Source of the DNA: an uncultured Clostridia bacterium
GTDB taxonomy: Bacteria; Bacillota; Clostridia; Oscillospirales; CAG-272
Assembly: GCA_946410595.1 (NCBI GenBank)
Contig: CAMKAU010000013.1
Span: 1-36,052 of the forward strand
Direction of reading: 5' to 3'
DNA: 36,052 bases
Positions within the stretch are counted from its first letter, which is position 1; each line of letters starts with the position of its first letter. Under the pieces are notes generated by a model. It saw only the letters and a list, made by a program, of their open reading frames with translations. It searched no databases and was not told the origin of the DNA. The position numbers and the translations under genes are program-made. Of this stretch, positions 15,498 through 34,625 are shown in pieces.

Positions 15498-17507
15498 ATG
15501 AAACTGAGCGACAAGATCCTCTTCGGCGGCGATTACAATCCCGAGCAATGGCGCGAAACGCCGGAAATCTGGGACGAGGATATGCGCCTGATGCGCCTCG
15601 CCCGCTGGAACGAGGCGACCGTCGGGGTCTTCTCCTTTGCCGAGCTGGAGCCGGAGGAGGGGGTATTCGACTTCTCCGTGCCGGACGCGATCTTTGAAAA
15701 AGCGGAACAAAACGGCGTGAAGATCATCCTCTCCACCCCCTCCGGCGCGATGCCGCGCTGGATGGCGGAAAAATACCCGGAGATCCTGCGCACCCTCGAC
15801 GACCGGCGCAAGGCGGTCTACGGCCGCCGGGAAAACCACTGCTTTACCTCCCCCGTCTACCGGGAGAAGGTCGCGGAGATCGACCGCAAGCTCTCCGAGC
15901 GCTACGGCCGCCACCCCGCGCTGCTCGCCTGGCATATCTCGAACGAGTTCAACGGCGAGTGCCACTGCCCGCTCTGCCGCGCGGCGTTCTGCGCATTTCT
16001 GGAGAAAAAGTACGGCGCGATCGACCGGCTCAACGCCGCGTGGTGGACCCGCTTCTGGAGCCACCGGGCGAACGCCTTTTCGGAGATCGAGCCCCCCTCC
16101 CCGATCGGGGAGACCTGCGTCCACGGGCTGACGCTGGACTGGAAGCGCTTTGTGACCGCGCAGACGGCGGACTTTGCCCGTGTGGAGATCGAGGCGGTCC
16201 GCGCCTTTTCCGACCGGCCGGTCACGACCAACCTGATGGGCTTTTACACCGGGCTCGACTACCGCGAGCTCTCCAAACCGTTCGACTTCGTTTCCTGGGA
16301 CAACTACCCCGACTGGGGCAAACCGGAGGGGGACGAGGGAACGGCGGCGTGGATCGCCCTCACCCACGACCTGATGCGCTCGATGAAGCGGGACAACTTC
16401 CTTTTGATGGAGTCCACCCCCTCCCACACCAACTGGAAGGAGATCAACAAGCTCTACCGCCCCGGGATGATGCGGCTCGCCTCCCTGCAGGCGCTGGCGC
16501 ACGGCTCGGAGAGCGTGCAGTATTTCCAGTGGCGCAAAAGCCGCGGCTCGAGCGAGAAGATGCACGGCGCCGTGGTCGACCACTACGGAAAAGAGGACAC
16601 CCGCGTCTTTGGGGAGGTCGCCGCGCTCGGCGAGGAGCTCGAAAAGCTCGCCCCGATCGTCGGCAGTACCCCGCGCCCCCGGGTCGCCCTCCTCTACGAC
16701 TGGGACAACGTCTGGGCGCTGCAGGATCTGCAGGGAATGCAGAAAAAGAACAAGCAGGTCGGCGCCACGCTGCTCCGCCAGTATCTCCCCTTCTGGCGGG
16801 CGGGGATCTCCTGCGACGTGATCGGGCGGCGGGAGAGTTACGGGAGCTATTCCTTGCTCGTCGCGCCGATGACCTATCTCTGCGAAGCGGAAACGGCAAA
16901 GCGCCTCGCCGCCTTCGTGCGGGAGGGCGGAACGCTCGTCGCCACCTACGCCCTCGCCCAAACGGACGAAAACGACCTCTGCCACCTCGGCGGCTTCCCC
17001 GGCGCGGGACTTTCCGAGGTCTTCGGCCTGCGGGCGGAGGAGCTTGACACCCTCTACCCCGAGGAACGGGTGAAGATCTCCGCCCTCGGCGAAAGCTATC
17101 TGGCAAAGGACTACTGCGAGATCCTCAAGCCGGAGGCGGACACTGAGATCCTCGGCGTTTACGAAAGCGAGTTTTACGCCGGGACCCCCTGCCTGACCTC
17201 CCACGCCTACGGGAAAGGCAGGGCGTACTATATCGCCTTCCGGGACGCGGACGGCGCCTTCTCCGGGGCGTTCTACCGGCGCCTTGCGGACGAGCTCGGG
17301 CTGGAAAGTCCCCTCTCCGAGATCCCCGCGGGCGTCTCGGCGCAGACGCGGGTAAACGAAAAGGGGGAAACCTTCCTCTTTTTGCTCAACTTTTCCCGCG
17401 AGGAGCGGAAGATCCCCCTCGGGCGGGAGATGACCCTCCTCAAAACCGGCAAGCCCTTGTCGCAACTGGTCCTGCCGCCTTACGGCGGGGAGGTTTTGAA
17501 GGGCTGA
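15498..17507 (+). CDS. Beta-galactosidase, glycoside hydrolase family 42
   Basis: A 669-residue GH42 enzyme that hydrolyses terminal beta-galactosides; no signal peptide, so it acts on imported oligosaccharides. The (beta/alpha)8 domain opens with FGGDYNPEQW. The acid/base is Glu150 in HISNE and the nucleophile Glu305 in LLMES. The zinc cysteines typical of the family are present (Cys115, Cys155, Cys157, Cys160). A trimerisation/amidotransferase-like domain (about 395-590) and a short beta domain follow, full length for the family. Start ATG follows GAAAGGA. No transporter or regulator adjoins it. It stands alone after its promoter, and I see no strong terminator before the sigma-factor promoter region. 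Confidence 0.95.
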   Translation: MKLSDKILFGGDYNPEQWRETPEIWDEDMRLMRLARWNEATVGVFSFAELEPEEGVFDFSVPDAIFEKAEQNGVKIILSTPSGAMPRWMAEKYPEILRTLDDRRKAVYGRRENHCFTSPVYREKVAEIDRKLSERYGRHPALLAWHISNEFNGECHCPLCRAAFCAFLEKKYGAIDRLNAAWWTRFWSHRANAFSEIEPPSPIGETCVHGLTLDWKRFVTAQTADFARVEIEAVRAFSDRPVTTNLMGFYTGLDYRELSKPFDFVSWDNYPDWGKPEGDEGTAAWIALTHDLMRSMKRDNFLLMESTPSHTNWKEINKLYRPGMMRLASLQALAHGSESVQYFQWRKSRGSSEKMHGAVVDHYGKEDTRVFGEVAALGEELEKLAPIVGSTPRPRVALLYDWDNVWALQDLQGMQKKNKQVGATLLRQYLPFWRAGISCDVIGRRESYGSYSLLVAPMTYLCEAETAKRLAAFVREGGTLVATYALAQTDENDLCHLGGFPGAGLSEVFGLRAEELDTLYPEERVKISALGESYLAKDYCEILKPEADTEILGVYESEFYAGTPCLTSHAYGKGRAYYIAFRDADGAFSGAFYRRLADELGLESPLSEIPAGVSAQTRVNEKGETFLFLLNFSREERKIPLGREMTLLKTGKPLSQLVLPPYGGEVLKG

Positions 17508-19700: not shown

Positions 19701-19769
19701 AAAGAAAAGAGGCGGTCCTATGCGTGCACTCATCTGACCCCGCGCCGGACAGATCCGGTCCTTCTGCCG

Positions 19770-19798
19770 TTGACAAAAAAAGACCGATAAACTATAAT
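19770..19798 (+). promoter_or_regulatory. Consensus sigma-A promoter very close to a start codon
   Basis: TTGACA (19770-19775), 17-nt spacer, TATAAT (19793-19798): fully consensus. The start codon of the large secreted protein is at 19814, so transcription should start near 19805 and give a leader of about 9 nt with GGAG at its extreme 5' end. Confidence 0.85.
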
Positions 19799-19813
19799 GA
19801 AAAAGGAGACTGT

Positions 19814-22800
19814 ATGAAAGCATATCTGAAAAAGACTTCCTTGCTTCTCGCGCTCTTGCTCACTCTTTCCGTTTTTCTCCCCTCCCTGCAGACGGCCGTC
19901 GCAGCGGAACCGGACGAGCCGCCCCGCCTGACCCCGGAGGAGGTCCGCGCCGAGCTTGCAAAAACCCGCGGAGAACGGGTGCCCGAAGAAGAGTTTGACC
20001 TGTATTCCAAAGCCTTCTCGAACGGCGACGGCACCAATACCCTGATCTCCTACAGTCACCCCGTCAAATACATGGATGAAAAGGGCGAGATCCGGGATAT
20101 TTCCCTCAAGCTGACCGCCGGAAAGGACGGCGGCTTCCGGACGGAACAAAGCAATATCCTCGTCGGTCTGCCGGAGCGCCTCTCCGACGGGATCGCGCTC
20201 TCCTATGACGAAGTGGAGACCACGATGATCCCGAAGGACGCGCAAAAAAAGGACGCCGCCGGTCTCCTCTCCGAGGATCGGGAAACGGCGACCTACCGTC
20301 TTGATGAACAGACAAGCTATTCTTACTCTCTCTCCTATACCGGGATCCGGGAGGTGATCGAGGTCGCCTCCTATACGGGGCAGACCGAATACGCCTTTAC
20401 CCTCCGGACGGGCGGACTCTCCCTCCGGGAGGAGCGGGACGGCTCCTTTGCCCTCTATGACAAAACGGGAGCGCGGAAGGTCGCTCTCGGGGACGTGATC
20501 GTCTTCTCGGCGGACGAACGGAACAACACCTTCGGCGCCATGCGGGCGGAGACCGTCCGGGAAAACGAAGAATATACCGTGACCCTCTTACTGGATCCCG
20601 ACTATCTCGCGGACGAGCGGACGGTCTACCCGATCCGCATCGACCCCGATATCACCCTCCCCGATTCTTCAGTCGGTACCATCGAGGACGTGACGGTCAA
20701 CAGCGCGGATCCCATTTCCGCGACCTCCAACACGATCAGCGCGGGACGCTACCCGAGCGATTCCTCTCTCTCCTATATCCTGATGCGTTTCCCGTATCTC
20801 AACCTTAGCGGGATCGCCAACTCCAACCAGATCGTCTCCGCCACGGTGGAGATCCGGGATCTGATGTGCCAGTCCGAGCCGCTGGATCTGGAGTGCCGGA
20901 TCTACAACGAGAGTGCCGCCGGATGGAGCGAGGCGGGCAGCCCGACCTGGTGGTCGATCCCCTCCGAGTCCGTCTACGTGGGGGGTTATCTGGATTCTCG
21001 CACGATCACCTACGGCAACGGCAACGTCCCGGACGCGCCGCAGCGCTACGGGTACAATATCACGAACCTTGCGGTCAACTGGAAGAAAGGGACCAATTCT
21101 CCCTCCAAGGGGATCGTCTTCCGTCCCTCCGCCGCCTTTCTTGCCGGGACCGCCGGAATCTACAAGACCTTTGCCTCCTACAACGCGGCGTCCGGCTTCA
21201 GCCCCACGCTTACCATCATCTATTACGCGGGTACGCCGAGTTTCTCGGTTGAGGAAGGGCAGACCTATAACCTGGCTTCCGCGCTGGCGATTACGGGCGG
21301 AACGGTGACCGGATGGTCGTCGACCAACACCTCGGTCGCCACGGTAAACGCAAACGGCGTGGTGACGGGGGTGCACGCGGGCTATACAACCGTAAAAGCT
21401 TACGTCTCCTACGCAAACGGCAGCACCGGAACGGTAAACTGCTATGTGACCGTGACCCTGCCGACAGGCGTCTATAACCTTTATAATATCGAACAAGGTC
21501 TTTGCTTTACCTCGGACGGTATGATCAACGAGGGCAATATCATGCTGTTCGGGACGACCCGTTACTACCCGGCGGATGATCTGATCGACCGGCTCCGTCA
21601 GCAGTGGAAGATCGAATATATCGCCTACGGCTATTACGTGATCCGTCCTTACAATAATCTTGCGATGGGACTTTGCAACGACGACGGGCAGGGCGACGTC
21701 TGCCTGCGGACGGTCGGTACCGCCACAACGACTTCGCTGGATGATGACGCGTGGTGGGAGATCTGGTGGAACGGAACCGGCTATGAGATCTGGAATGATT
21801 CCTACGATATGGAGAGTCTTGCACTAAGTTATACCAACAATGCGTATCTCTCCTACGGGGACGGGGATATGACGTGGGCGATCCAGGATCCGGTCGAGGT
21901 GTTCCAGGACGATACCTACCTCGAGATCGAGCAGGGGATCCTCTTCTACGACACAACTACTTGGACTTATCTAAATGATCCGGAGGCATATGTTGCACCG
22001 GAAGAGACAAGAACGCTCAGCCAGCTTGGGCTGAAAACGGTCGTCTTCCGACCGGACACAAACTCCCAGCAGCACGGGTGGTCTTTTCTCCAACCCGCCA
22101 AAGTTTCTGTCAACGCAAGCGGAACGGTAACGGGGATCTCTCCGGGAGAAACAACCGTGTTTGCCGAAATCTTTGATCCCTGGATCTTCAGCTTCTGCAC
22201 GCTGAATGTGACAGAGATTGCAAACGGCAAATATCTTTTGAAAAATAAAGCAACTGCAAAATACGTTGATACTGCAAATCAACAAATGCTACCTGGTACA
22301 CAAATATGTCAAGGTAGTTTTAGTGGAGATGGTTCGCAATTTTGGCTTTTCACACATCTCGGGGACGGATCTTATTCCATTCGTTCCGCCAATTCGGCTC
22401 TCGACTATTATCTCGGCGTACAAAACGACGCGACGGCGACAGACACACCGGTCGTTCTCCGGACGGGATCTCTTACTAACGGGATGAAGTGGAAGATAAG
22501 CAAAACTACAAGCGGAGCGTACAAGATTACTCCCAAGACTGGGGAATCAAATAATCGCGTCCTCGCGATTGGATCCTATAACTCCGGCATTTTTGAATAC
22601 GATATAAGACAAAAAAACTATGTTGGAGATACTGATTATAAGGATGAATGGTCGTTTACCTCTTTGCTCTATGATGTCCCCCACAATTTAACATCAACCA
22701 TTTCCCACTTGTGTATTCCTTGCGCAATAACAAATGTTGCCGCGTTTTGGTGCAATAAAGGTTATACACAGTTCGATTGTTCTTCTTCAGCCGCACAAGA

Positions 22801-23182
22801 AAATGCAGCAATAGCGGTTCAAACGGCTATGGGAGGTCATCATACAGCAAATGACTATATCCAGCTTGGATTTGATGTCTTTTCACATACCAGCGGAGGA
22901 ATCACTTATAAGTTAGCATCAGACAATTATTGGCAAGGATATTTTTCCGAAACTGATATTATGTCCGAATTGGATGCAGGAAGACCTTTAATGTTAGGTT
23001 TTGCAGATGTTACCGGTTCTCCTTATGCTGGGCATATGACTGTTTGCGTCGGTTACGAATGGGAGGGGAATAAGATGTATGTTTATGTAAGCGATGCACA
23101 TCAACACAAGTATGCCCGTCAGGAATTGAATCTAACAACATATAATGACTTTATCTCAAAGGTAGTTATTACAGAAGAATGA
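19814..23182 (+). CDS. Large secreted multidomain protein with C39-like cysteine peptidase domain
   Basis: An exported 1122-residue protein. Signal peptide to about residue 32. Residues about 35-280 are a conserved-looking N-terminal region; about 280-470 resemble DNRLRE-type structural domains; about 471-549 is a bacterial Ig-like (Big_2) domain (WSSTNTSVATVNANGVVTGV). About 551-697 looks like a ricin-type beta-trefoil, about 740-800 a partial second Big_2 (VSVNASGTVTGISPGETTV), and about 801-952 a second trefoil. Residues about 955-1122 form a papain-like C39 peptidase domain with Cys967 in CIPCAITN, His1074 in AGHMTVCVGY and Asp1094. It probably binds glycans or cell wall and cleaves peptides. 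AAAGGAG sets the start; the longer frame has no such site. GC content drops from about 22220 onward. Confidence 0.87.
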   Translation: MKAYLKKTSLLLALLLTLSVFLPSLQTAVAAEPDEPPRLTPEEVRAELAKTRGERVPEEEFDLYSKAFSNGDGTNTLISYSHPVKYMDEKGEIRDISLKLTAGKDGGFRTEQSNILVGLPERLSDGIALSYDEVETTMIPKDAQKKDAAGLLSEDRETATYRLDEQTSYSYSLSYTGIREVIEVASYTGQTEYAFTLRTGGLSLREERDGSFALYDKTGARKVALGDVIVFSADERNNTFGAMRAETVRENEEYTVTLLLDPDYLADERTVYPIRIDPDITLPDSSVGTIEDVTVNSADPISATSNTISAGRYPSDSSLSYILMRFPYLNLSGIANSNQIVSATVEIRDLMCQSEPLDLECRIYNESAAGWSEAGSPTWWSIPSESVYVGGYLDSRTITYGNGNVPDAPQRYGYNITNLAVNWKKGTNSPSKGIVFRPSAAFLAGTAGIYKTFASYNAASGFSPTLTIIYYAGTPSFSVEEGQTYNLASALAITGGTVTGWSSTNTSVATVNANGVVTGVHAGYTTVKAYVSYANGSTGTVNCYVTVTLPTGVYNLYNIEQGLCFTSDGMINEGNIMLFGTTRYYPADDLIDRLRQQWKIEYIAYGYYVIRPYNNLAMGLCNDDGQGDVCLRTVGTATTTSLDDDAWWEIWWNGTGYEIWNDSYDMESLALSYTNNAYLSYGDGDMTWAIQDPVEVFQDDTYLEIEQGILFYDTTTWTYLNDPEAYVAPEETRTLSQLGLKTVVFRPDTNSQQHGWSFLQPAKVSVNASGTVTGISPGETTVFAEIFDPWIFSFCTLNVTEIANGKYLLKNKATAKYVDTANQQMLPGTQICQGSFSGDGSQFWLFTHLGDGSYSIRSANSALDYYLGVQNDATATDTPVVLRTGSLTNGMKWKISKTTSGAYKITPKTGESNNRVLAIGSYNSGIFEYDIRQKNYVGDTDYKDEWSFTSLLYDVPHNLTSTISHLCIPCAITNVAAFWCNKGYTQFDCSSSAAQENAAIAVQTAMGGHHTANDYIQLGFDVFSHTSGGITYKLASDNYWQGYFSETDIMSELDAGRPLMLGFADVTGSPYAGHMTVCVGYEWEGNKMYVYVSDAHQHKYARQELNLTTYNDFISKVVITEE

Positions 23183-24312: not shown

Positions 24313-25680
24313 TCAGAAGGGGGCGACGACGCCGTAGTCGGCGCAGTCGAAGATGCGGGCGGAGCGGTCGGGGTTCCAGGCGATGACGGCGCCGGCGTTT
24401 TCGACGGCGCAGGTATGGCGCACGGCGCCGGAGATCCCGACGGCGAGGTAGACGGAGGGGGTAACGGTGCGGCCGGTGAGCCCGACCTGCCGCTCGTAGG
24501 GGAGGAGCCCGTCGTCGACGAGCGGGCGGGAGCAGCATAGCTCGGCGCCGAGCGAGTCGGCGAAGGCGCGCACGCGATCCAGTTCCCCGGAAACACCCCG
24601 GCCGGCGGCGACGATCAGGTCGCCGGAGGGCTCGGGGCAGCGGACGGTGGCAAGCGGCAGCCCGACGGAGCGGATCTCCGCGATCACGTTGCCGGAGCGG
24701 GCGGGCCGGTAGAGAAAGAGGGACTTGCCGTCTGTCTTCAGGTCGGTGCAATCGGCGCAGAGGCCGCAGCCAAGCATTGCCTGCAGCGCGGGCGCGGTGC
24801 GCCTGCCCCACAGATCGGCGGGAAAGAGGACGGCGTCCGGGGCAAGGCGCTTTACCTCCCGCAGGATCGCCTCCGGCGCGGTCTCCCGGATCACCGAAAC
24901 GCGCTCCGCGACCGCGGCGGCGCGTTTTTGCGGCCGCTCGCCGATCACGGCGATATGGGGGAGCTTTGTTTTGCTTTCCGGGTACCGCTCCTCGCGGCCG
25001 CCCCTGCCGGCGAGCTCCCGCAGCAGGGCGGGCAGCTCCTCCGGGGCGATGAAGCGGCAGGAGCGGCGGCCCCCCTCGTTTTCCTTGACCGAGAGGACGC
25101 GGGTGGGGGAGCCCTCCAGCCCGCAGAGGGCGGGATCCGCCCCGACCGTCCGGTTGTCCCAGACCTCGATCTCCCCCGCGCGGGAGAAGATCGAAGGGGC
25201 GCGCAGCACCGTGAACCGCTCGAAGGTGAGGAGCGCGGGCAGCGGCGCCTTTTCCCTGCCGAATCGGGTGCGGACCGAAACCGTTTTGCCGGTGAGGACG
25301 GGCGGCTCCATCGCGTTCGTCAGCGCGGGAACGCCGCAGAGCGCGGCGAGGCAGGGCCCGACCTGGGCGGTATCGCCGTCGGTGGACTGCCTGCCGCAGA
25401 AGATGAGATCACAGGGGATCTTGCGGACCGCCTCCCGCAGGATACGGGCGGTCGCCAGCGTGTCCGAGCCGGCGTAGAGGGGGTCGGAGAGGAGGATCAC
25501 GCGCAGATCGCCGAGGCGGGTGAGAGCGGCGAGGCAGGGACGGGCGGAAAGGGGCGCCATCGAGAGGACGGTCACCTCCGCCCCGTCAAGGGAAAGGGCG
25601 GCTTCGAGAGCCGCCCCGTCGAAGGGAGTGATCTCCCCGCCGACCGGCTTGACAAGGACGAGGACGTTCAGCTTTTTCAT
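24313..25680 (-). CDS. Fused electron transfer flavoprotein (EtfB-EtfA, shortened alpha part)
   Basis: A 455-residue single chain holding both ETF subunits. Residues 1-225 are EtfB-like (VLVLVKPV start; FCGRQSTDGDTAQVGPCLA at 94-112 is the beta nucleotide-binding signature). Residues about 241-345 are a shortened EtfA domain I (DAVLFPADLWGRRTAP, GLCADCTDL). Residues about 353-455 are the EtfA FAD domain (GRGVSGE, RQVGLTGRTVTP, YLAVGISGAVRH, IFDCADYG). EtfA normally has about 320 residues; here about 210, lacking the first part of domain I and the last C-terminal helix. It probably carries electrons from the FAD-linked oxidase/Fe-S pair of the same operon. Last gene, 9 nt after the FGGY kinase. 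Whether it confurcates cannot be read from sequence. Confidence 0.87.
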   Translation of the reverse strand: MKKLNVLVLVKPVGGEITPFDGAALEAALSLDGAEVTVLSMAPLSARPCLAALTRLGDLRVILLSDPLYAGSDTLATARILREAVRKIPCDLIFCGRQSTDGDTAQVGPCLAALCGVPALTNAMEPPVLTGKTVSVRTRFGREKAPLPALLTFERFTVLRAPSIFSRAGEIEVWDNRTVGADPALCGLEGSPTRVLSVKENEGGRRSCRFIAPEELPALLRELAGRGGREERYPESKTKLPHIAVIGERPQKRAAAVAERVSVIRETAPEAILREVKRLAPDAVLFPADLWGRRTAPALQAMLGCGLCADCTDLKTDGKSLFLYRPARSGNVIAEIRSVGLPLATVRCPEPSGDLIVAAGRGVSGELDRVRAFADSLGAELCCSRPLVDDGLLPYERQVGLTGRTVTPSVYLAVGISGAVRHTCAVENAGAVIAWNPDRSARIFDCADYGVVAPF

Positions 25681-25689
25681 TTTTTCTCC

Positions 25690-27168
25690 TTACAGAGGGG
25701 CGCGGTAGACAGGCGCGAGCGCGTCGTGGATCGCCTTGTACCGCCCGAAGAGACGCGCGTAGATCTCCCCGCGCGCGGGATCGGGCGAAACGGACGCCAC
25801 GGTAACCGAGCAGGCGCGCGCCGCGTCCGCGGGGGTGTTCCAGACCCCGGCGGCAACGCCCGCGAGCATCGCGGAGCCGAGGGAGGAGTCGCCGGAGCGG
25901 CGGACCTCCAGCTCCATGCCGAGCGCGTCGGAAACGATCTGCCGCCAGAGCGGGCTTTTGGCCCCGCCGCCGATCAGGGCGGCCTTTTTGTCGTGCGGGA
26001 GACCGAGCGAGTCGAGCGCGGCGAGGCAGTCGACGAGCGAGAGCGCCACGCCCTCCATGACCGCGCGCACGAAATGCCCCTTTGTGTGTCCGGCGCGGAA
26101 GCCGGTAAAGGAGGCGCAGAGCTGCGGGTCGGCGTAGGGGGTGAGCTCCCCGTTGAGATAGGGATGGTAGAGCAGTCCGTCCGCGCCGGCGGGCGCCGCC
26201 TCCGCGAGACGGTCGAGCGCCGGGTAGTCCATCCCGTCCCCGAAGGTATCGCGGAACCAGCGCAGCGAGGAGGCGCAGGCCTTCGTCGCCGTGCCGGGGT
26301 ACCAGAGCCCGTCGGAGATATGCGAATAGTTGATGAGGTAGTCGGAGGGATAGGCGCGGTCGGTGATGACACAGATCCGCCCGGCGGTCGCCAGTTTGAC
26401 CGTCATATTCCCGGGCGCGACGGCGCCCGAGGCAAAGACCTCCGCCGCCGTGTCCGTCATCCCCGTGAGGACCGGCAGCCCCTCCGGGAGCCCGAGCTCG
26501 CGCGCGGCCTCCGCCGTGACCGTACCGGCAAGATCTGTCGGCCGGACGACGCGGGGCAGGACCTCCGGGGAGATCCCGGCAAGCGAGCAGAGAAACTCCG
26601 ACCAGCGGCCGGCGCCGTTGTCCCAGAGCATGGAGCCCTGCGCCTCGATACTGTCGGTGAGAAAGTCGCCGGTGACGCGGTGGCGGACGAAGTCCTTGGC
26701 AAAGAGGACGCGCCGGATCCGGGAGAAAAGCTCCGGCTCGTTTTCCCGCACCCAGATCAGCTGCGGGAGGGTCCAGATCGGATCCGGGCGAGAGAGCGCG
26801 AGGGAAAAGATCCGCTCGCCGTACCGCTCCCGCAGATCCTTTGCGATTGCCGCGGAGCGGGTGTCCGTCCAGTAGATCGCCGGGCGGAGAGGCGTGAAAT
26901 CCTCCCCGCAGAGAACGGCGGTGTGGGTGGCGGCGTCGAGGGAGAGCGCGGCGATATCGGAGGGGGCAACGCCGCTTTTTTCAAGCAGCGCCCGGACGTT
27001 TTTCACCGTGGCGGCGTACCAGTCCTCCGGGTCCTGCTCGACCTGTCCGGGGGCGGGGTAGCGGGTCGGGTACTCGACGGCGTTTTCCGCCGCGACCGTT
27101 CCGTCCTCCGCGAGCAGCGTCGCCTTCGACGAGCCGCCGCCGAAGTCAACGCCGATCAGGTATTTCAT
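25690..27168 (-). CDS. FGGY-family carbohydrate kinase (xylulokinase-like)
   Basis: A 492-residue FGGY sugar kinase that phosphorylates a ketose or polyol with ATP. The two actin-like halves are evident: LIGVDFGGGSSKATL at the start, PAIYWTDTRS near 117, VLTGMTDTAAEVFASGAV near 245, and ALIGGGAKSPLWRQIVSDAL with SSLGSAMLAGVAAG in the C-terminal half. Length fits xylulokinase, but FGGY substrate calls from sequence alone are unreliable. In this operon it accompanies an L-fucose/L-arabinose isomerase-like protein, which could supply its ketose. It lies 21 nt after the iolB-type gene and 9 nt before the fused ETF gene. Confidence 0.9.
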   Translation of the reverse strand: MKYLIGVDFGGGSSKATLLAEDGTVAAENAVEYPTRYPAPGQVEQDPEDWYAATVKNVRALLEKSGVAPSDIAALSLDAATHTAVLCGEDFTPLRPAIYWTDTRSAAIAKDLRERYGERIFSLALSRPDPIWTLPQLIWVRENEPELFSRIRRVLFAKDFVRHRVTGDFLTDSIEAQGSMLWDNGAGRWSEFLCSLAGISPEVLPRVVRPTDLAGTVTAEAARELGLPEGLPVLTGMTDTAAEVFASGAVAPGNMTVKLATAGRICVITDRAYPSDYLINYSHISDGLWYPGTATKACASSLRWFRDTFGDGMDYPALDRLAEAAPAGADGLLYHPYLNGELTPYADPQLCASFTGFRAGHTKGHFVRAVMEGVALSLVDCLAALDSLGLPHDKKAALIGGGAKSPLWRQIVSDALGMELEVRRSGDSSLGSAMLAGVAAGVWNTPADAARACSVTVASVSPDPARGEIYARLFGRYKAIHDALAPVYRAPL

Positions 27169-27189
27169 GGAAACGACCGTTCCTTTCGT

Positions 27190-27978
27190 TTATTTCGTGA
27201 GCCACTTATGGTCTTCGTCGGTGGTCATATTGAAGCCGCGGATCTTGCCCGCCATGATCCAGAGGTAGTAGAGCTTATACCCCGGCGCGCAGGTGCAGGG
27301 GTGATAGCCGCGCGGGATCTCGACGGCGTCGTCGTTTTTGACGGTGTAGGTCTCGTCGATATCCCCTTCCTTCGTGTAAACGCGCTGGATGCCGAAGCCG
27401 GTGGGCTTGTCGAAGCGGTAGAAGTAGAGCTCCTCCATAAAGGACTCGTCGGGCATATTGTTGTCGTCGTGCTTGTGGGGGGGATAGGAGGACCACATAC
27501 CGCCCTCGGTCCACGCTTCGCCGATATAGACCTGGTCGGCGTCGACCCGCTCGTCGATGTTGAAGTGCGCCTCGCGCTTCCAGCCGTCCTTGCCGAGGTG
27601 CTTGATGATCACGTCCTCGGGGGAGACGAGGACCGGCTTGGTGACCCGCTCCGCCGGGCATTTCGCAACGACGATCTCCGCCTCGCCCTCCACGGCGGTC
27701 ACGGTGAAGTCGCAGTTCTTCGGCAGATAGACGGAGGCGGCGGGGCCGTCGAAGACGTTCTTTCTCTTGCCGATATTCTCAAAGGAGAAGCCCTCGCCGA
27801 CGATCGAGCATTTGCCGCCGAGGATCACAAGGCCGTACTCCTTGCCGTCCTTTTCGTAGTAGTGCTTCTGCTCGCCCGCGCGGAGCTTGAGCATATCCGC
27901 GTCGATGAGGGCGAGGGTCCCGTTTTTGATAAACGCGGATTTGCCGTACTGACCGTTCCAGTGTTTTTTGAGTTTCAT
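27190..27978 (-). CDS. iolB: IolB-type isomerase (5-deoxy-glucuronate isomerase family)
   Basis: A 262-residue double-cupin protein of the IolB/KduI group. IolB converts 5-deoxy-D-glucuronate to 5-dehydro-2-deoxy-D-gluconate in inositol breakdown. SSYPPHKHDDNN gives the metal ligands His168 and His170, MEELYFYRFDKP supplies a glutamate (182 or 183), and IPRGYHPCTCAPGYKLYYLW the last histidine (His226). These closely follow Bacillus IolB. The ATG overlaps the PfkB kinase stop (ATGA), so the two are coupled. The other inositol genes that act upstream (iolG, iolE, iolD) are absent from this operon, so its true substrate may be a different deoxy or acidic sugar. Confidence 0.87.
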   Translation of the reverse strand: MKLKKHWNGQYGKSAFIKNGTLALIDADMLKLRAGEQKHYYEKDGKEYGLVILGGKCSIVGEGFSFENIGKRKNVFDGPAASVYLPKNCDFTVTAVEGEAEIVVAKCPAERVTKPVLVSPEDVIIKHLGKDGWKREAHFNIDERVDADQVYIGEAWTEGGMWSSYPPHKHDDNNMPDESFMEELYFYRFDKPTGFGIQRVYTKEGDIDETYTVKNDDAVEIPRGYHPCTCAPGYKLYYLWIMAGKIRGFNMTTDEDHKWLTK

Positions 27979-28883
27979 CTTTCATTCTCCTTTATGAATA
28001 ATTCCAGCTCGGGCAGGGTCGGCGTGCTTTGCCGCGCGCCCCCCAGGCCGGTGCATTTGAGAGCCGAACAGGCGGAGGCGAAGGCGGCGCATTCGTCCGC
28101 GTTTCCTCTGCCCGCCGTAAAGGCGTAGGCGTAGGCGCCGTGGAAAACGTCGCCCGCGCCGTTGGTATCCGCCGCTTTGACCTGATACGCCCGGTAGGAG
28201 CGGTATCCGTCTTTGTCGAGGATGACGCCGCCCGCCTTGCCGCGGGTGATCACGAGCGTCTCGGGCGCATAGCGGTCCCGGAGTTCTTTTGCCGCCTCGC
28301 GCAGCGCCGTCTTCCCCGTGATCCCGAGGGCAAACTCCTCGCTGGGGATGAGAAGGTCTACGAGGGGGAGGAGCTCTTCGATCCCCGCGTAGCGGCCGCC
28401 CGCGTCAAGAAGGACCTTGACGCCGTTTGCGCGGGCGATCTCCGCGCCCTCGATCGCCGCCGCCATCTCGTTGCCGTCGAGCAGCAGGAGATCCGCCGAG
28501 GCGATCGCCTTCTTCTGCTCCGGGTCGAGCGAAAGCGGGGAAAGGGAGCCGCGGTCAAACACGCAGGTGCGCGTTGCCGCCGCCTCCGAGAGCCAGATCC
28601 AGGAGGAAAAGGAGGTTCCCTCGCGCCGCCGCGTGAGGGAGGTATCCACCCCCCAGCGCGCCATATCCGCGGCAAGGAAATCCCCGCCCCGGTCGAGCGC
28701 GAGCTGCCCGATATAAGCGCAGTCCGCGCCGAGCTTGGCCGCCGCGACGAGCGCGGTGCCGCAGGGGCCGCCCCCGACCTCCCTGCTCTTCTCCGCGCGG
28801 AGTTTGGTATCCTCCGCGGGGTAGGAGGGGAGGGTGATCAGGGTATCGTGTACGTTTGCGCCGATGCCGACGATCCGTGCCAT
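27975..28883 (-). CDS. PfkB-family sugar kinase
   Basis: A 302-residue ribokinase/PfkB kinase. REVGGGPCGTALVAAAKLG (34-52) is the N-terminal signature, and DTNGAGDVFHGA (239-250) the ATP-site signature with catalytic base Asp245. I start at 28883 (MARIVGIG), where the fold begins and AAGGAGAAAAAG precedes the ATG; an upstream frame extension into the aldolase gene is not credible. With an IolB-type isomerase next and an aldolase before it, a role like IolC (5-dehydro-2-deoxygluconate kinase) is natural. From memory, the VGGGP and GAGDVFHGA regions also resemble sulfofructose kinase YihV. Substrate therefore open. Confidence 0.88.
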   Translation of the reverse strand: MARIVGIGANVHDTLITLPSYPAEDTKLRAEKSREVGGGPCGTALVAAAKLGADCAYIGQLALDRGGDFLAADMARWGVDTSLTRRREGTSFSSWIWLSEAAATRTCVFDRGSLSPLSLDPEQKKAIASADLLLLDGNEMAAAIEGAEIARANGVKVLLDAGGRYAGIEELLPLVDLLIPSEEFALGITGKTALREAAKELRDRYAPETLVITRGKAGGVILDKDGYRSYRAYQVKAADTNGAGDVFHGAYAYAFTAGRGNADECAAFASACSALKCTGLGGARQSTPTLPELELFIKENER

Positions 28884-28893
28884 CTTTTTCTCC

Positions 28894-29727
28894 TTATTTT
28901 GCCTGACCGGCGGAGCCGAGGACCGCGATCTTTGAGAGCGCGAAGGTCTCGACCGCCTTGACGGCGTCCCGCATAAAGAGGTCGATGCCGACCCACTCGC
29001 GGCTGGTGGCGAACACGGTGTCAAGGAAGGAATAGCAGAGATCGGTGGAGAAGTTCATCTTCCGGATCCCGGCCTTCACCGCGGCGCGGATCTCTTCGTC
29101 CGGCACGCCGCTGCCGCCGTGCAGCACGAGCGGAACGCCGGCCGCCTCTTTGATCTCGCGGATCCGTTCGATCGCCAGCTTGGGCGCCTTTTTGTAGCGG
29201 CCGTGCGCCGTTCCGACGGCGACGGCGAGCGCCTCCACCCCCGTCTCTTCCACGAAACGGCGGGCGGCGTCCGGCTCGGTATAGTTGTCGCCGATCTCCT
29301 CTTTGGTCGTCCCGACGTGGCCGAGCTCCCCTTCCACGGCGATATTCCCCGCCTGTTTGCAGAGGGCGACCACCTTTTTCGTCAGGGCGGCGTTGTCGTC
29401 GAACTCCAGCTTCGACGCGTCGATCATAATCCCGGTCGCGCCGGCCTCCAGCGCCCCGACGACCTGCGCCTCGGTGGCGCCGTGATCGAGGTGGAAGGCG
29501 ACGGGAACGGTCGCGTACTTCGCCGCCGCAAGGATGTTCGCGCCGGCGAACTTGCCGTTTTCTCCGTCAAAGAGACGGGAATAGATCTGCATGATCACGG
29601 GGGAACGGGTCGCCTCCGCGGCGTGCAGGACCCCCATGACCGTTTCCATATTGTAGACGTTGAACGCGGGGACGGCGTAGCCGCCTTTTTCCGCGTCGCA
29701 AAGGATCTCTCTCAGCGTTACAAGCAT
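28894..29727 (-). CDS. Class II fructose-bisphosphate-type aldolase
   Basis: A 277-residue zinc aldolase of the FbaA/GatY/IolJ group that splits a phosphorylated ketose into DHAP and an aldehyde. FHLDHG gives catalytic Asp81 and zinc ligand His82; GTAHGRYK gives His175; VLHGGSGVPDEE gives His203 plus the phosphate loop. Start at 29727 (MLVTLREIL) is set by GGAGGAGG upstream and overlaps the Fe-S gene by 10 nt. With an IolB-type isomerase and PfkB kinase it could act like IolJ, yielding DHAP and malonate semialdehyde, or cleave another ketose phosphate such as one made by the FGGY kinase. Confidence 0.92.
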   Translation of the reverse strand: MLVTLREILCDAEKGGYAVPAFNVYNMETVMGVLHAAEATRSPVIMQIYSRLFDGENGKFAGANILAAAKYATVPVAFHLDHGATEAQVVGALEAGATGIMIDASKLEFDDNAALTKKVVALCKQAGNIAVEGELGHVGTTKEEIGDNYTEPDAARRFVEETGVEALAVAVGTAHGRYKKAPKLAIERIREIKEAAGVPLVLHGGSGVPDEEIRAAVKAGIRKMNFSTDLCYSFLDTVFATSREWVGIDLFMRDAVKAVETFALSKIAVLGSAGQAK

Positions 29728-30809
29728 TCCGCGATCGCCTCCTCCAGCGTGATCACGCGCGCGCCCTTCGGCTTCGTCGCCGAGAGGGCGAGGTATTCGG
29801 CGGTGTCCGCCGTTACGAGGGTCTTTGCCCCCATGTTGACGGCCTCGTCCCATCTCCGCTTCGCCATCCCGAGCACCGTTTCGTGCAGGTAGCGATCAAG
29901 GATCAGGTCGCCCGCCAGCACCGTCTCTTTTCCGGCGAGGAGCATTTCCTTCAGTTCCCCGCAGGCGGAGAGGACCGCGCGCGCGGAGGAAACGTCCTCC
30001 AGCGCCCGGGCGAGCGCCGCGGGATCCTGGAAGGTGTAAACGGCCGTTCCCTTTTTCACCTTGAGTTTTTTGCCGATCAGCGTTTCGAGGTACGCGGGGA
30101 AGGTCACAAGCTTCGCCTTCGCGGCGATCCCCAGCTCCGGCGCGTCCTGCTTGGCCGTGCGGGCGTCCTCCGGCTCGTAGAAGACGACGGTCTTGTAGCC
30201 GGAATAGAGCGCCGCGGCGGCCTGCATCGCGTCGCGGGTCTCTTTGGTGTCTCCGCAGAGGAAGGAAAGCTGCCGGCCGCTCTCCGGCTCCTTTTCGAGC
30301 AGGGTGAAGGAGACCTTCGCCCGCTCGAGGAGCGCGATCGCGCCGAGGGCTTTGTCCTTGGCGAAATGCCGGGCGTCGCTGCCGACGTAAAAGAGGACGT
30401 CGGTCTTGGCGGCGTGGCGGCGCGCGGCGTCGGAAAACGCTTTGTTTTTCGGTTCCGCGCCGTAGATATGGCCGGTCTTTGCGTAGGTTTCAAGCAGCAG
30501 ACGGACGGCCTCCGGCGCCTCGCCGGAGAGCACCGCCTCACGGCGCGCCTCGCGGGTGAAGAGCACCGGATCCCAGCCGGTCTTGCAGTCCTCGGTGCAG
30601 GCGCGGCAGAGGGCGCATTCGTAAACGTTCTGCACAAGGTCGCCCTTCAGCTCCGCCGCCCCTCTCCCGACAAGCGAGAGGGAGAGCGCGCGGGCGCGGG
30701 CGGTATTTCTTTCCTGTCCCGTCGTATTGCCGACCGGACAGATATGGCGGCACATCCAGCAGAAGCGGCAGGCGTCCGCCGTCTCGCGGCATTTGTTGGA
30801 AAATGACAT
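29718..30809 (-). CDS. Fe-S electron-transfer protein with two [4Fe-4S] motifs
   Basis: A 363-residue soluble protein. Two Cys-x2-Cys-x2-Cys-x3-Cys motifs near the N terminus, at Cys14/17/20/24 (ACRFCWMCRHICP) and Cys65/68/71/75 (YECALCRACTEDC), make a ferredoxin-like module as in the Fe-S partner (GlcF/LldE/HdrD style) of FAD-linked oxidases. The rest (about 110-363) has the alternating alpha/beta pattern of the CCG-type region, but the double-cysteine CCG motifs are not visible, so that part appears altered. It should pass electrons from the adjacent FAD oxidase to the fused ETF. Start follows GGAGGAACGAAGG, 13 nt after the oxidase gene. Confidence 0.87.
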   Translation of the reverse strand: MSFSNKCRETADACRFCWMCRHICPVGNTTGQERNTARARALSLSLVGRGAAELKGDLVQNVYECALCRACTEDCKTGWDPVLFTREARREAVLSGEAPEAVRLLLETYAKTGHIYGAEPKNKAFSDAARRHAAKTDVLFYVGSDARHFAKDKALGAIALLERAKVSFTLLEKEPESGRQLSFLCGDTKETRDAMQAAAALYSGYKTVVFYEPEDARTAKQDAPELGIAAKAKLVTFPAYLETLIGKKLKVKKGTAVYTFQDPAALARALEDVSSARAVLSACGELKEMLLAGKETVLAGDLILDRYLHETVLGMAKRRWDEAVNMGAKTLVTADTAEYLALSATKPKGARVITLEEAIAECL

Positions 30810-30822
30810 CCTTCGTTCCTCC

Positions 30823-32247
30823 TTACAGTCCGAGCTTGAACGGGTTCATGATCCCGTTCGGGTCGAGCTCTCTCTTCAGTCCTTCAAAGACCTTCATCGC
30901 GGGGCCGTACTGCTCCTTCATCAGGCGGCCGAGCTTGATGCCGACGCCGTGATGGTCGTTGACCACGCCCCCGTTCGCGATCGCCGTGCGGACGCCGCAG
31001 TTCCAGATCGCGTTATGCAGGCGCATCGCTTCCTTCGGGTCGGTGGGAACGTCCTTGCCGTCCACGATGAAGCGGTCGTAGACCATCGCGCCCCACTCGT
31101 ACCAGTGGGAGAAATGCGCGATGAACTTGGCCTGCGGGAAGTTCGTTTCGATCGCCTTTTTCATCGCCCAGTAGATCTCTTCGATCTTCCCGTAGGGGGC
31201 GATCGTGTCCATCGTGCCGAACATCTGCGGCAGATCCATCATGTGGCCGGGATAGAAGAAGGTGATCTTTTCCTTCCACCACTTTTCGCCGTACTCGCTG
31301 CCGAGATCCTCGGCGCCGTATTTGGCGAAGGTGGAGAGCAGGATCTTCTGCTCCAGCTCGACCATCTCGGAAACGCCCTCGATCGCCACGTTCATAAACG
31401 CGCCTTCGCGCTCCACGCCGACGATCTTTTTGATCAGCGAGGCGGTCTCCGCCGGGTCGTAAAGACGCATCACGCTGGGCTTGAACTTTTGCAGGAGCTC
31501 GCGCGCCGCGTCGAACGCGTCGGTCATATTGCGGAAGAGGAAGCCGCGGAAGCGCCGCTCCTCCGGCATATCGTAGATGCGCATCTGGGCCTTCGTCATC
31601 ACGCCGAGCGTCCCCTCGGAGCCGATGAAGATCTGGTTGAGATCGGGCCCCGCCGCGTGCTTGGGCGCGGGGGAGGTATGGATGATCGTGCCGTCCGGCA
31701 AAACGACCTCCATCCCCAGGACCATATCGTCGATCTTGCCGTACTTGGTGGAAACAACGCCGATGCCGCGGTGGGCGAGGAACCCGCCGACCGTGGAGCA
31801 GGTGAGGGAGGACGGGTAGTGCATCGTCGCGTAGCCGCGCTCGTTCGCCTTCCACTCGAGGTGCTTGTAGATCGTGCCGGCGCCGCACTCGATATACATC
31901 CCTTTTTCGTTGAACTCGGTGATCGCGTCCATCCGCTTGGTGTCAAGCAGGATGCCGCCCGCCACCGGGATCGCGCCCCCCTGCGTTCCGCCGCCGCCGC
32001 CCCAGGTGGTAACGGGGATCTTGTAGTAGTTGGCGATCTTGAGAACGGCGGAGGTCTCCTGCGCGTTCTTCGGGGAGACGATATAGTCCGCCTCCGGCAT
32101 CCGCAGTCCGCGGTCCGCCCACATACGGGAGAGCCAGAAGTAGTCCACCCCGTGGGTCAGCTTGTCGATATCCCGGGTGGAGCAGTTTTCGCGGCCGACG
32201 GCGTCCTCAAGCTCCGTCAGCACCTGTGTAAAGAGGAAATCTGTCAT
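30823..32247 (-). CDS. FAD-linked oxidase (VAO/GlcD family)
   Basis: A 474-residue flavoprotein of the FAD_binding_4 / FAD-oxidase C type. TTWGGGGGTQGGAIP (80-94) is the FAD pyrophosphate loop; STVGGFLAHRGIG and IFIGSEGTLGVMT continue the FAD domain. The C-terminal domain ends with NDHHGVGIKLGRLM (from about 430), a His-His motif like alkylglycerone-phosphate synthase and D-lactate/glycolate dehydrogenases, then LDPNGIMNPFKLGL. Relatives oxidise 2-hydroxy acids; alditol and sugar oxidases share the superfamily. Placed between an isomerase and an Fe-S protein, it probably oxidises a pathway intermediate and passes electrons on rather than to oxygen. Start ATG follows AAGGAGAAACA. Confidence 0.93.
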   Translation of the reverse strand: MTDFLFTQVLTELEDAVGRENCSTRDIDKLTHGVDYFWLSRMWADRGLRMPEADYIVSPKNAQETSAVLKIANYYKIPVTTWGGGGGTQGGAIPVAGGILLDTKRMDAITEFNEKGMYIECGAGTIYKHLEWKANERGYATMHYPSSLTCSTVGGFLAHRGIGVVSTKYGKIDDMVLGMEVVLPDGTIIHTSPAPKHAAGPDLNQIFIGSEGTLGVMTKAQMRIYDMPEERRFRGFLFRNMTDAFDAARELLQKFKPSVMRLYDPAETASLIKKIVGVEREGAFMNVAIEGVSEMVELEQKILLSTFAKYGAEDLGSEYGEKWWKEKITFFYPGHMMDLPQMFGTMDTIAPYGKIEEIYWAMKKAIETNFPQAKFIAHFSHWYEWGAMVYDRFIVDGKDVPTDPKEAMRLHNAIWNCGVRTAIANGGVVNDHHGVGIKLGRLMKEQYGPAMKVFEGLKRELDPNGIMNPFKLGL

Positions 32248-32269
32248 CTTGTTTCTCCTTTTTTATTTG

Positions 32270-33664
32270 TCAGCGATCCATCGGATCGTTTTCCAGCATC
32301 GGGATATAGCGGCAGAACTCCGCGATCTCGGCGGTCACGTCGCCCTCGACTTCCACGCAGTGGTGGATGTAGGGCCCGTCGATCAGTTTGTCCTCCCAGC
32401 GCTTGAGTCCGTCGAACTCCGCCCAGAGGTAGGTGCCGAAGGTGTAGGGACCGGTCGTCGCCTTCGCCGTGCCGTTGAGGATCCGGTAGACGCCGTTGTC
32501 CTCCTCAAAGCGCGCGACGGTGTAGGAGCCGTCCTTCACGCGGAACCACTGCCGCATATTGACGTTTTTCGCCTTGCTGTCCGGCGCCTTCAGCGAGTAG
32601 GCGAACGGCCCGCAGTGCCAGAGCAGCTCGGCGTTTTCGTTCTCCGGATGGCGGACGGTGAACTCGCCGAGGAAGGGGATCTTCTTCCCTCTCGTGGCGG
32701 AGGCGAGCAGGACCATCGTGATCACCGCGTGCATATCGCTCTCGCAGCTGATCAGATACCCCTTGTCCGCCAGCACGCTGTACGCCGTGCAGGGCATCGC
32801 GCCGACCGCGAGCTGCATCGCCGTCCAGCACTCCGCCGAGATCGCGCCGACCCCGTACTCCGCGAAGATCTCCTCGTAGAGCAGAACGAAGGCGTAAACT
32901 TTCTCGAGGAGCGGCGGGGTGAGATCGTCCATCTCGTAACGGGAGAGAAGGAGCTCCTTTCCCTTTTCGAGCTCCTCTTTTCTCGTTTCGAGGATGCGGT
33001 TGTACTTGTCGACGATGACGGCAAGGTTGATCGGGATAGTGCGGATGTCGAACTTGCGCATCAGCTCGCCCTCGTTGAAGATGACCGAGCAGAAGGGCCG
33101 CGGCCGCATCCCGACCTGCGCCACCTTCAGCGTGCGGAAGTTGCGGACCATGCACACAACGTTCTCAAAACGGGTGAAGTCCCGCTCAAACGCCGGGGAA
33201 TCCACACGGCAGGTCTCGATATGGGAGAAGGGGATGTTGCGGCGCTGCAGCATCCGGCTGACGCCGAAGATGCCGCACTGGCTGTCGGTGTAGCGCATCC
33301 CGTCCGCGTCGAACCGGTCGTCGAGCGGCGCCCAGATGCAGACCGGCACCTTCAGCGCGGCGGCGACCACGCCGATCGCCTCCTCGTTGCCGAAGTTCGC
33401 GTTGATGAAGAACACGCCGTCCACCTTTTCCGCCTGAAAGCGCTCGATGATCTTCTGCGCGTCCTCCTCGTTGATCATCACGTCGACCGGGTTGATCCCC
33501 TTGATGTCGACAAACTCCGTCTGCCCGTCGCCGTAGCGGGCGATGACCGCCTCGGTCAGTTCGCGGCCGCGGCGCTCCGCCACCTCCCAGTTGAAGATGC
33601 CCGGGCGGGGCGTTACGTCGCGCCGGACCGGAACGATGCCGAGCTTAATCCGATAAGAAAGCAA
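32270..33664 (-). CDS. L-fucose/L-arabinose isomerase-family protein
   Basis: A 464-residue member of the FucI/AraA-like superfamily, which interconverts aldoses and ketoses with a metal. AISAECWTAMQ (Glu278) and ISCESDMHAVI (Glu308/Asp310) match the acidic metal/proton-transfer sites. A late YIHHCVEVEGD supplies histidines. Length is shorter than E. coli FucI (about 590), typical of the broad uncharacterised group. The start is TTG at 33664, supported by GGAGGT seven nt upstream; no nearby ATG competes. First gene of the eight-gene operon, under the promoter at 33702-33731. True sugar unknown; the call does not imply fucose use. Confidence 0.87.
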   Translation of the reverse strand: MLSYRIKLGIVPVRRDVTPRPGIFNWEVAERRGRELTEAVIARYGDGQTEFVDIKGINPVDVMINEEDAQKIIERFQAEKVDGVFFINANFGNEEAIGVVAAALKVPVCIWAPLDDRFDADGMRYTDSQCGIFGVSRMLQRRNIPFSHIETCRVDSPAFERDFTRFENVVCMVRNFRTLKVAQVGMRPRPFCSVIFNEGELMRKFDIRTIPINLAVIVDKYNRILETRKEELEKGKELLLSRYEMDDLTPPLLEKVYAFVLLYEEIFAEYGVGAISAECWTAMQLAVGAMPCTAYSVLADKGYLISCESDMHAVITMVLLASATRGKKIPFLGEFTVRHPENENAELLWHCGPFAYSLKAPDSKAKNVNMRQWFRVKDGSYTVARFEEDNGVYRILNGTAKATTGPYTFGTYLWAEFDGLKRWEDKLIDGPYIHHCVEVEGDVTAEIAEFCRYIPMLENDPMDR

Positions 33665-33701: not shown

Positions 33702-33731
33702 ATTGTAATCCGGCGGAAAATGTTTTACAAT
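33702..33731. promoter_or_regulatory. Superimposed divergent promoters on one inverted repeat
   Basis: ATTGTAA (33702-33708) and TTACAAT (33725-33731) form an inverted repeat. On the plus strand this reads TTGTAA, 17-nt spacer, TACAAT, pointing to the AraC gene. On the minus strand it reads the same TTGTAA, 17-nt spacer, TACAAT, pointing to the sugar operon. A further ATTGTAAAA (33750-33758) mirrors TTTTACAAT (33723-33731) and may be an operator half-site. Confidence 0.7.
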
Positions 33732-33782
33732 GTAATAAATGATGATGCGATTGTAAAAATCGACGGTTTTTGCGAGGTGGTT

Positions 33783-34625
33783 ATGACGGAACGGACCCTG
33801 TCCTTCGCCGAGCTTGCCCGCGCCGACTTCAACGTCGGGGCGGCGGCCGCCGTCTCCCGCCGCTGGGAGGACGGAAACCGCAACAATTACCTCTCCGGCG
33901 GCCGGCGGGAGAATATCCTCTCCTATACCGCCGAGGGCGGAAAAAATATCTACGTTCCCGGAAAAAAGGACCCCGTCGTTTCCCTCTCCTCCCCCGGCGC
34001 CGTCTTCATCGCCGAGGGTACGCCCTACCTCTCGGAGACCCTCTCCGGCGGCAGAACGGGGCAGACCTTCTGCATCCGCTTCCGGCTGAGCGACGCCGCC
34101 GGCTGCCGCCTTGTAGTAAACGACTCTCCCCTCGCCTTTGCCGACGACCGCTCCGGCTCCCTCGGCCGCGCGTTTCAGGCGGCGTTCGACTGCTTTATCC
34201 GCCCTTCCTCCACCCCCGCGGAGATGAAAAGCTGCTGCTTCGCCGTTTTTGCCCGGCTGTTCGCCTCCCTTTCGGCGGATAACGCGCGCCTCGGCTTTGA
34301 AAACCTCACCCCCGCCGTCCGCGCCATCGAGGACAATCCCGCCGCCGATCTCCCCGTCGCGGAGCTCGCGCGGATGTGCTTTCTCAGCGAAAGCTACTTC
34401 CGCTCCCGCTTCAAACAGTTTTCCGGCGGGCTCTCCCCCTCCGAATACCGCAACCGCCTCCGCATCCGCAAGGCGCAGGAGCTGCTCTCCTCCTCCCTCT
34501 GGACCACCGATCTGATCGCCGAGACGCTCGGCTTTTACGATACCTCGCACTTCTACCGCATCTATAAAAAATACACGGGGAAAACCCCCAAGCAGGCGGA
34601 ACACGCCGGAAAGGAAGCGCTATGA
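33783..34625 (+). CDS. AraC-family transcriptional regulator
   Basis: A 280-residue AraC/XylS regulator. Residues about 1-150 form an effector-binding region of cupin-like strand pattern (ILSYTAEGG, GAVFIAEGTPYL). The C-terminal DNA-binding domain (about 180-275) has two helix-turn-helix units: LPVAELARMCFLSESYFRSR and TTDLIAETLGFYDTSHFYRI, followed by YTGKTPKQ. I start at 33783 because GCGAGGTGG lies just upstream; the longer frame from 33720 would begin within the promoter. It is divergent from the sugar operon and is the obvious candidate for its control. Its stop overlaps the next start (ATGA). Confidence 0.9.
   Translation: MTERTLSFAELARADFNVGAAAAVSRRWEDGNRNNYLSGGRRENILSYTAEGGKNIYVPGKKDPVVSLSSPGAVFIAEGTPYLSETLSGGRTGQTFCIRFRLSDAAGCRLVVNDSPLAFADDRSGSLGRAFQAAFDCFIRPSSTPAEMKSCCFAVFARLFASLSADNARLGFENLTPAVRAIEDNPAADLPVAELARMCFLSESYFRSRFKQFSGGLSPSEYRNRLRIRKAQELLSSSLWTTDLIAETLGFYDTSHFYRIYKKYTGKTPKQAEHAGKEAL

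Follow-up and report, generated by a model that had tools for sequence, protein, structure and literature searches.

Which sugar chemistry would call for a flavin and electron-transfer arm of its own? This question is raised by eight minus-strand genes (positions 33664 down to 24313) on a stretch of 36,052 nucleotides, contig CAMKAU010000013.1 of an uncultured Clostridia bacterium (assembly GCA_946410595.1; 2.0 Mb, 111 contigs, 98.6% complete), which is referred to as the window throughout. In order, the operon encodes an aldose-ketose isomerase, a flavin adenine dinucleotide (FAD) protein, an iron-sulfur (Fe-S) protein, a class II aldolase, a PfkB sugar kinase, an IolB-like isomerase, an FGGY kinase and a fused electron transfer flavoprotein (ETF). 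The run is uninterrupted, with adjacent genes overlapping by 10 or 4 bases or separated by gaps of 9 to 22 bases; strand, gene order and the maximal spacing of 22 nucleotides given in an original prediction, made without database searches, were all re-found on the window. As described in the following, we found this operon to be real, widespread and recurrent across Clostridia.

Distribution of the gene set

An isomerase-based scan of genome contigs yielded 51 distinct loci, mostly metagenome-assembled genomes (MAGs) labelled as Clostridia or as a Clostridia family, many of them from the ruminant gut and some from other sources; the family counts given below over these 51 loci ignore near-identical pairs. 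The nearest relatives, at 97–98% identity, are RUG12395 (L032) and a goat-rumen MAG (L067). A single isolate, Hungatella hathewayi WAL-18680 (L061), is among them, and its version of the operon offers a cultured entry point. The FAD protein is also encoded at 37 of the 51 loci with an identity of at least 59%, and several of the 14 loci without it are short contigs.

At E ≤ 1e-60, the FAD protein was detected in 29 genomes out of a class-wide sample of 391, comprising 26 at an identity of at least 80% (own genome counted), one at 52% and two distant homologues at 34–35%. The 26 genomes are spread over 11 family labels, and in one sampled order the protein occurs in 8 of 16 genomes. Given this distribution, the operon probably serves a sugar which is common in these habitats, by a route not described.

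Neighbourhoods were retrieved for 20 of the 29 genomes, plus some further ones, and genes were counted at the 24 loci whose flanks extend 8 kb or more downstream and 2 kb or more upstream of the FAD gene. All 24 belong to the group with 80–99% identity in the FAD protein, as the flank rule excludes a second group at 59–66%. Genes for the Fe-S and the IolB-like protein are present at all 24 loci, those for aldolase, PfkB and FGGY kinase at 23 each and that for ETF at 22; DUF4867, which is absent among the window proteins scanned, is encoded at 11 and the isomerase at 18, the latter count being biased upward by eight loci picked through the isomerase itself. Since the neighbourhood is conserved, a chance grouping of these genes is excluded. 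The search across Clostridia which the original prediction had proposed thus recovered the gene set, and its concern that the neighbourhood might be found in no other genome proved unfounded. Its statement that the operon has no known counterpart holds in part: this gene combination was not found described in the literature searched, but the set itself is widespread in Clostridia.

An AGPS-like flavoprotein and its probable electron partners

The FAD flavoprotein (30823–32247, minus strand, 474 amino acids, PF01565 and PF02913) is AGPS-like by sequence and predicted fold, i.e., of the alkyl-dihydroxyacetone phosphate (alkyl-DHAP) synthase type. Its best sequence match in the PDB is alkyl-DHAP synthase 2uuu (141 bits), followed by D-lactate dehydrogenase (129 bits) and LctD (7qh2_C, 94.5 bits), and the 36 best Foldseek matches of its predicted model are all AGPS, ahead of D-lactate dehydrogenase. 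All 55 sequences retain R261, Y390, H432 and H433, which align with Arg419, Tyr578, His616 and His617 of mammalian AGPS. AGPS mutants at Arg419 and Tyr578 are named in PDB titles among the Foldseek matches; for the remaining active-site residues we presume the functions generally assigned to them. On closest sequence, fold and residues we reject a 2-hydroxy-acid dehydrogenase, which had been expected to couple to ETF; the expected link between a flavin protein and ETF as such is supported.

Within the main group of the window, the flavoprotein is the most conserved member, as its identity of 80–99% compares with mostly 36–68% for the other proteins of those loci, the closest loci excepted. In the second group its 59–66% is no better than the 60–68% of the isomerase that was used to pick those loci. 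More distant homologues (31–35%; L156–L159, genomes G663 and G548) adjoin FGGY kinases, and the neighbours in L156, L158 and L159 resemble what we take, from their sequence starts, to be GlpA, GlpB and DUF1667. These neighbours hint at phosphorylated polyols.

The Fe-S protein (29718–30809, minus strand, PF13183) contains two 4Fe-4S motifs, whose eight cysteines are found in 53 of 53 sequences. Its model, predicted with a local distance difference test score (pLDDT) of 92, resembles an EtfD-like fold: the top Foldseek match is mycobacterial EtfD (9ojn, E 1.5e-12), LutA-LutB come next, and HdrB subunits and racemases follow as weaker matches. The last gene of the operon (24313–25680, minus strand, 455 amino acids, PF01012 and PF00766) encodes a fused and shortened ETF beta-alpha. 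Relatives include fused forms of 450–559 amino acids, and separate subunits prevail in most of the more distant group; across L039–L063, separate subunits, long fusions (to 559 amino acids) and the shortened fusion (about 450) all occur. What looked like a fusion of ETF and IolB in L041 and L044 turned out to be an artefact of overlapping open reading frames. We infer that electrons would pass from the flavoprotein via the EtfD-like Fe-S protein to ETF.

Proposed sugar cleavage and competing routes

Which sugar intermediate could feed this arm? The first gene of the operon (32270–33664, minus strand, 464 amino acids; TTG start with GGAGG eight bases upstream) encodes an isomerase without a match in Pfam or, at E 0.01, to any PDB sequence. 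Its label as FucI/AraA-like is nevertheless fair, as it weakly matches the sulfoquinovose isomerase model NF048012 (116.5 bits, cut-off 700), and E278, D310 and H350, the presumed metal ligands, are kept in 60 of 60 sequences, window included. The PfkB kinase (27975–28883, minus strand, PF00294; profile and PDB scans were run on 27975–28889, two codons longer than the refined gene) is closest in the PDB to sulfofructose kinase YihV (7ag6, 124 bits versus 92 for the next match, ribokinase), whose product is described as a ketose 1-phosphate (PMC12890257).

For the class II aldolase (28894–29727, minus strand, 277 amino acids, PF01116), the best PDB match is the YdjI aldolase 6ofu, and the His/Glu/His motifs of metal-ligand type are found in 57 to 60 of 60 sequences. 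In E. coli FbaA, the far phosphate is bound by the arginine of a C-terminal DPR motif; no such motif is found within the final 60 residues of any of the 60 sequences. The missing motif is a lead, not proof, towards an aldehyde without phosphate. The fructose/tagatose type of the aldolase makes a D-gluco or D-galacto configuration of the sugar probable. The sugar would have no phosphate at its far end.

With isomerase, kinase and class II aldolase present, the operon fits a split of a sugar to DHAP and a second fragment, as had been anticipated. In the pathway that we propose, a hexose-type aldose would be isomerised to the ketose, phosphorylated on C1 by PfkB and cleaved by the aldolase to DHAP and an aldehyde without phosphate; a ketose 1-phosphate is suggested as the molecule cleaved because PfkB is nearest to sulfofructose kinase and the aldolase nearest to YdjI, without DPR. 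The AGPS-type flavoprotein would probably oxidise an alcohol group of a pathway sugar. An anaerobic split resembling the Embden-Meyerhof-Parnas (EMP) pathway with such a flavin/ETF arm is our tentative reading, to which we assign somewhat less than an even chance, with substrate, direction and step order all inferred. A little more doubtful is the specific proposal that in gut Clostridia the AGPS fold was recruited for a dehydrogenase which is coupled to ETF, works with the EtfD-like Fe-S protein and acts on a DHAP-like intermediate of sugar breakdown, i.e., a ketose or ketose 1-phosphate. If true, sugar oxidoreductases would gain a new class, central to an anaerobic route of sugar splitting that has not been described; already an ETF-linked flavoprotein of the AGPS type would be an unexpected use of this fold. 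Of the chemistry envisaged by the original prediction, the sugar operon, the split to DHAP and the ETF-linked flavin step were retained, and the inositol route, the 2-hydroxy-acid dehydrogenase and a strict sulfosugar route were lost.

The distribution of the genes suggests two modules, namely isomerase, aldolase and PfkB (module 1) and flavoprotein, Fe-S protein, ETF, FGGY and IolB-like protein (module 2). In G407 they are split, with flavoprotein, Fe-S protein, IolB, DUF4867, FGGY and ETF at one locus (L114) and isomerase, aldolase and PfkB at another (L145). Seven genomes lack the isomerase at the FAD locus; five of these encode it elsewhere (48–55% identity), and in the other two (89% and 92% complete) none was found elsewhere either.

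A sister gene set without the flavoprotein (L078) places isomerase, PfkB and aldolase beside an aldehyde dehydrogenase, a MOFRL glycerate-kinase-like protein and an enolase paralogue, which would suit an unphosphorylated C3 aldehyde such as glyceraldehyde. In a profile scan of this set, the Eda subfamily model alone among the specific models passes its cut-off. The set in L065, L075, L078 and L079 also includes Eda and AKR, with the trio complete in L078 and partial elsewhere, and L065 and L078 contain DUF4867. A NagA-like deacetylase and a NagB-like protein recur as well (L118, L124, L117, L049, L056, L154, L155 and L146), either beside the isomerase or within the flavoprotein operon; the NagA-like protein passes its cut-off in L118, and the NagB-like protein stays below it in L118 and L124.

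Several observations weigh against the proposed pathway and the role of the flavoprotein in it. The predicted model of the flavoprotein has a pLDDT of 66, 54 of 55 flavoproteins carry Met at the AGPS Arg515 position and 54 of 55 carry Asp at that of His615, and AGPS itself is redox-neutral. Absence of DPR does not decide the matter: 8q57, which is named tagatose-1,6-bisphosphate aldolase, is also without it in the alignment. Two isomerases and two kinases exceed the needs of module 1, and FGGY and IolB have no assigned part in the proposed steps. Support for the modules is mixed, only G407 being a clean split: the isomerase of G336 belongs to the sister gene set, where a separate PfkB and aldolase accompany it (L153, on the same contig as L078), that of G043 adjoins a transaldolase-like gene, and those of G560 and G642 adjoin NagA- and NagB-like genes. 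In addition, the isomerase is the loosest member of the set, being encoded at 18 of the 24 flanked loci, or at 10 of 16 without those picked through the isomerase. Finally, the substrate hints disagree, as five relatives with LctD-like genes and six with larA point to a lactate-type product and the sister set to glyceraldehyde.

An unlikely alternative is a uronate route, in which the IolB- or the FucI-like enzyme would isomerise glucuronate or galacturonate, PfkB and aldolase would yield DHAP and tartronate semialdehyde, and the flavoprotein would oxidise the hydroxyl beside the carboxylate. The IolB family acts on sugar acids, and the operon protein passes the cut-off of the IolB model TIGR04378; moreover, the closest match of PfkB is a kinase that acts on an anionic ketose, and a gene of the LarA family (2-hydroxy-acid racemase) is found near 6 of the 51 loci, on the opposite strand in L045. 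However, the flavoprotein groups with AGPS and not with the 2-hydroxy-acid dehydrogenases, and an enzyme for tartronate semialdehyde is not among the eight genes.

To the same low degree, we consider a 6-deoxyhexose of the D-quinovose or D-fucose type, which would be split to DHAP and lactaldehyde, the latter being converted via lactate to pyruvate. EtfB-EtfA-LctD-LarA occur in the same gene run in L039 and L043 and EtfB-EtfA-LctD-like genes in L046, L047 and L049. Of the LctDs, only that of L039, a separate extra gene, was searched, and it reaches 572.7 bits to LctD of A. woodii. These genes and LarA would suit a lactate-type product or lactaldehyde from a 6-deoxy sugar, but neither LctD nor LarA is among the eight genes of the window, and FGGY and IolB would be left unexplained.

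Less probable still is an inositol-type lower pathway, in which 5-deoxyglucuronate would give malonate semialdehyde and DHAP downstream of an unknown upper part. The IolB-like cupin isomerase (27190–27978, minus strand, 262 amino acids) scores 244.6 bits against TIGR04378 (cut-off 205), and its H168, H170, E182, E183 and H226 are found in 38 of 38 sequences. Annotation by cut-off would consequently name the gene 5-deoxy-glucuronate isomerase and imply inositol use where no IolD is found. Among 291 genomes of the class, 24 have an IolB above the cut-off and 32 more show weaker matches. Two of the 24 score 333 and 343 bits and sit in iol operons, as read from their neighbours, in contrast to 22 at 220–254 bits; 21 of these 22 genomes are also in the flavoprotein list, the exception being G506 (82% complete). 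The IolB of G468, also in an iol operon by its neighbours, reaches only 124 bits, so that an iol IolB is not recognisable by its bit score alone. A tree of 43 rows puts the operon IolBs into groups apart from eight iol-labelled rows, which stand on long branches with unsure joins and for three of which neighbours were read. PfkB reaches 90.1 bits against the IolC model TIGR04382 (cut-off 300). IolD was over the cut-off in none of ten carrier genomes, with weaker matches in seven and no match in the own genome, compared to 3 of 14 named genomes in a control; IolG and IolE are not among the eight genes, and no genome search was made for them. On the IolC and IolD scores and on the scores and tree of the IolBs, we reject inositol as the whole pathway; the predicted IolB/IolC/IolJ route to malonate semialdehyde is not supported, although the predicted lack of iolD is. 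The neighbouring FGGY kinase (25690–27168, minus strand, 492 amino acids) is xylulokinase-like, with xylulose kinase 2itm as best PDB match and 360.9 bits against TIGR01312, below the cut-off of 380.25.

Electrons might also flow in reverse, so that the flavoprotein would serve fermentation as an electron sink, at which ETF and the Fe-S protein reduce an intermediate of the sugar route. An EtfD-like protein beside ETF fits both directions, and AGPS forms a flavin adduct next to a ketone. Sugar reductases of this type are not known to us, and we regard this option as quite improbable.

A role of DUF4867 in sulfoglycolysis as partner protein SqvB/SftX is described (PMC9594981; PMC11968277), and the family is encoded at 17 of the 51 loci (GalM-type epimerase: 6 of 51; one representative each named); as it is also reported from many aldose/ketose clusters that contain FucI-type and FGGY genes (PMC11968277), its presence is no proof of a sulfosugar. 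The least likely route, a sulfoquinovose pathway resembling sulfo-EMP2, draws on isomerase and PfkB being nearest to sulfoglycolytic proteins and on DUF4867 in relatives, but the isomerase lies far below its cut-off, the kinase is PfkB instead of the PfkA type, Pfam and NCBIfam scans of the eight genes (the rest of the genome was not searched) gave no sulfoquinovosidase or sulfolactaldehyde enzyme, and a GH31 gene is present at 2 of 73 loci (L057 and L060), that of L057, the one scanned, passing no GH31 model cut-off. The sulfosugar route, which had been offered as a second option, is rejected in its strict form, as isomerase score and kinase type do not fit.

Operon surroundings and comparison with known systems

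Upstream of the isomerase, a divergent AraC-type gene (33720–34625, plus strand, PF12833/PF00165) is the probable regulator of the operon; its relatives (43–98% identity) adjoin the isomerase in L032–L037 and L067. Downstream of the ETF gene, a terminator-like hairpin of 13 pairs was found by pattern match (24176–24144, minus strand), and a scan near the operon end gave three terminator-like sites versus an average of 1.0 in shuffles, which is weak evidence for a terminator. AraC gene and hairpin, the latter by pattern only, would bound the unit. A plus-strand open reading frame of 1066 amino acids antisense to the operon (24928–28128) was judged a coding-frame artefact.

Neither a transporter, in agreement with the original prediction, nor a glycosidase is among the eight genes. 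ABC-type sugar transporter-like genes, typed from their sequence, lie near the operon at 11 to 12 of the 51 loci. Glycosidases, searched with one query per glycoside hydrolase (GH) family across 73 loci, are rare and mixed as a substrate hint, with GH36, GH4, GH2 and GH31 at two loci each, GH20 at one and GH42 at none. On the window itself, a GH42 beta-galactosidase gene (15498–17507, plus strand) lies about 7 kb from the operon. Further neighbours are a predicted protein of 1152 amino acids with Big_2, ricin-type lectin and C39-like peptidase domains (19724–23182) and a pair of adjoining CNNM/CBS-domain genes (11241–13864, minus strand).

How does the operon compare to known systems? Sulfo-EMP2 (SqvD, SqvB, SqiK, SqiA) is described to use a FucI-type isomerase and a PF01116 aldolase, with a DUF4867 protein being common (PMC9594981; PMC12890257). 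The window operon shares both enzyme families, and about a third of the relatives, the 17 loci mentioned above, the third; further likenesses, as proposed here, would be a kinase forming a ketose 1-phosphate and the split to DHAP and an unphosphorylated aldehyde. In contrast, its kinase belongs to PfkB (PF00294) and not to the PfkA-type SqiK (PF00365), its isomerase is far below the sulfoquinovose isomerase cut-off, and flavoprotein, Fe-S protein, ETF, IolB-like protein and FGGY kinase are added. With the lower pathway of myo-inositol, the operon has in common that an IolB-family isomerase, a PfkB kinase and a class II aldolase are encoded together; it differs in the kinase, which is below the IolC cut-off, in the ten carriers without IolD over the cut-off, and in operon IolBs that form their own tree groups.

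For the flavin arm, LctBCD of A. woodii resembles the window in an FAD-linked protein that is encoded with ETF, whereas the window flavoprotein, with its 94.5 bits to LctD, has AGPS-type residues and an additional Fe-S partner. With AGPS, finally, the flavoprotein shares the fold, the closest solved sequence and the Arg419, Tyr578, His616 and His617 positions; unlike AGPS, it is shorter and changed at the Arg515 and His615 positions, and its gene lies in a sugar operon together with those for an Fe-S protein and ETF.

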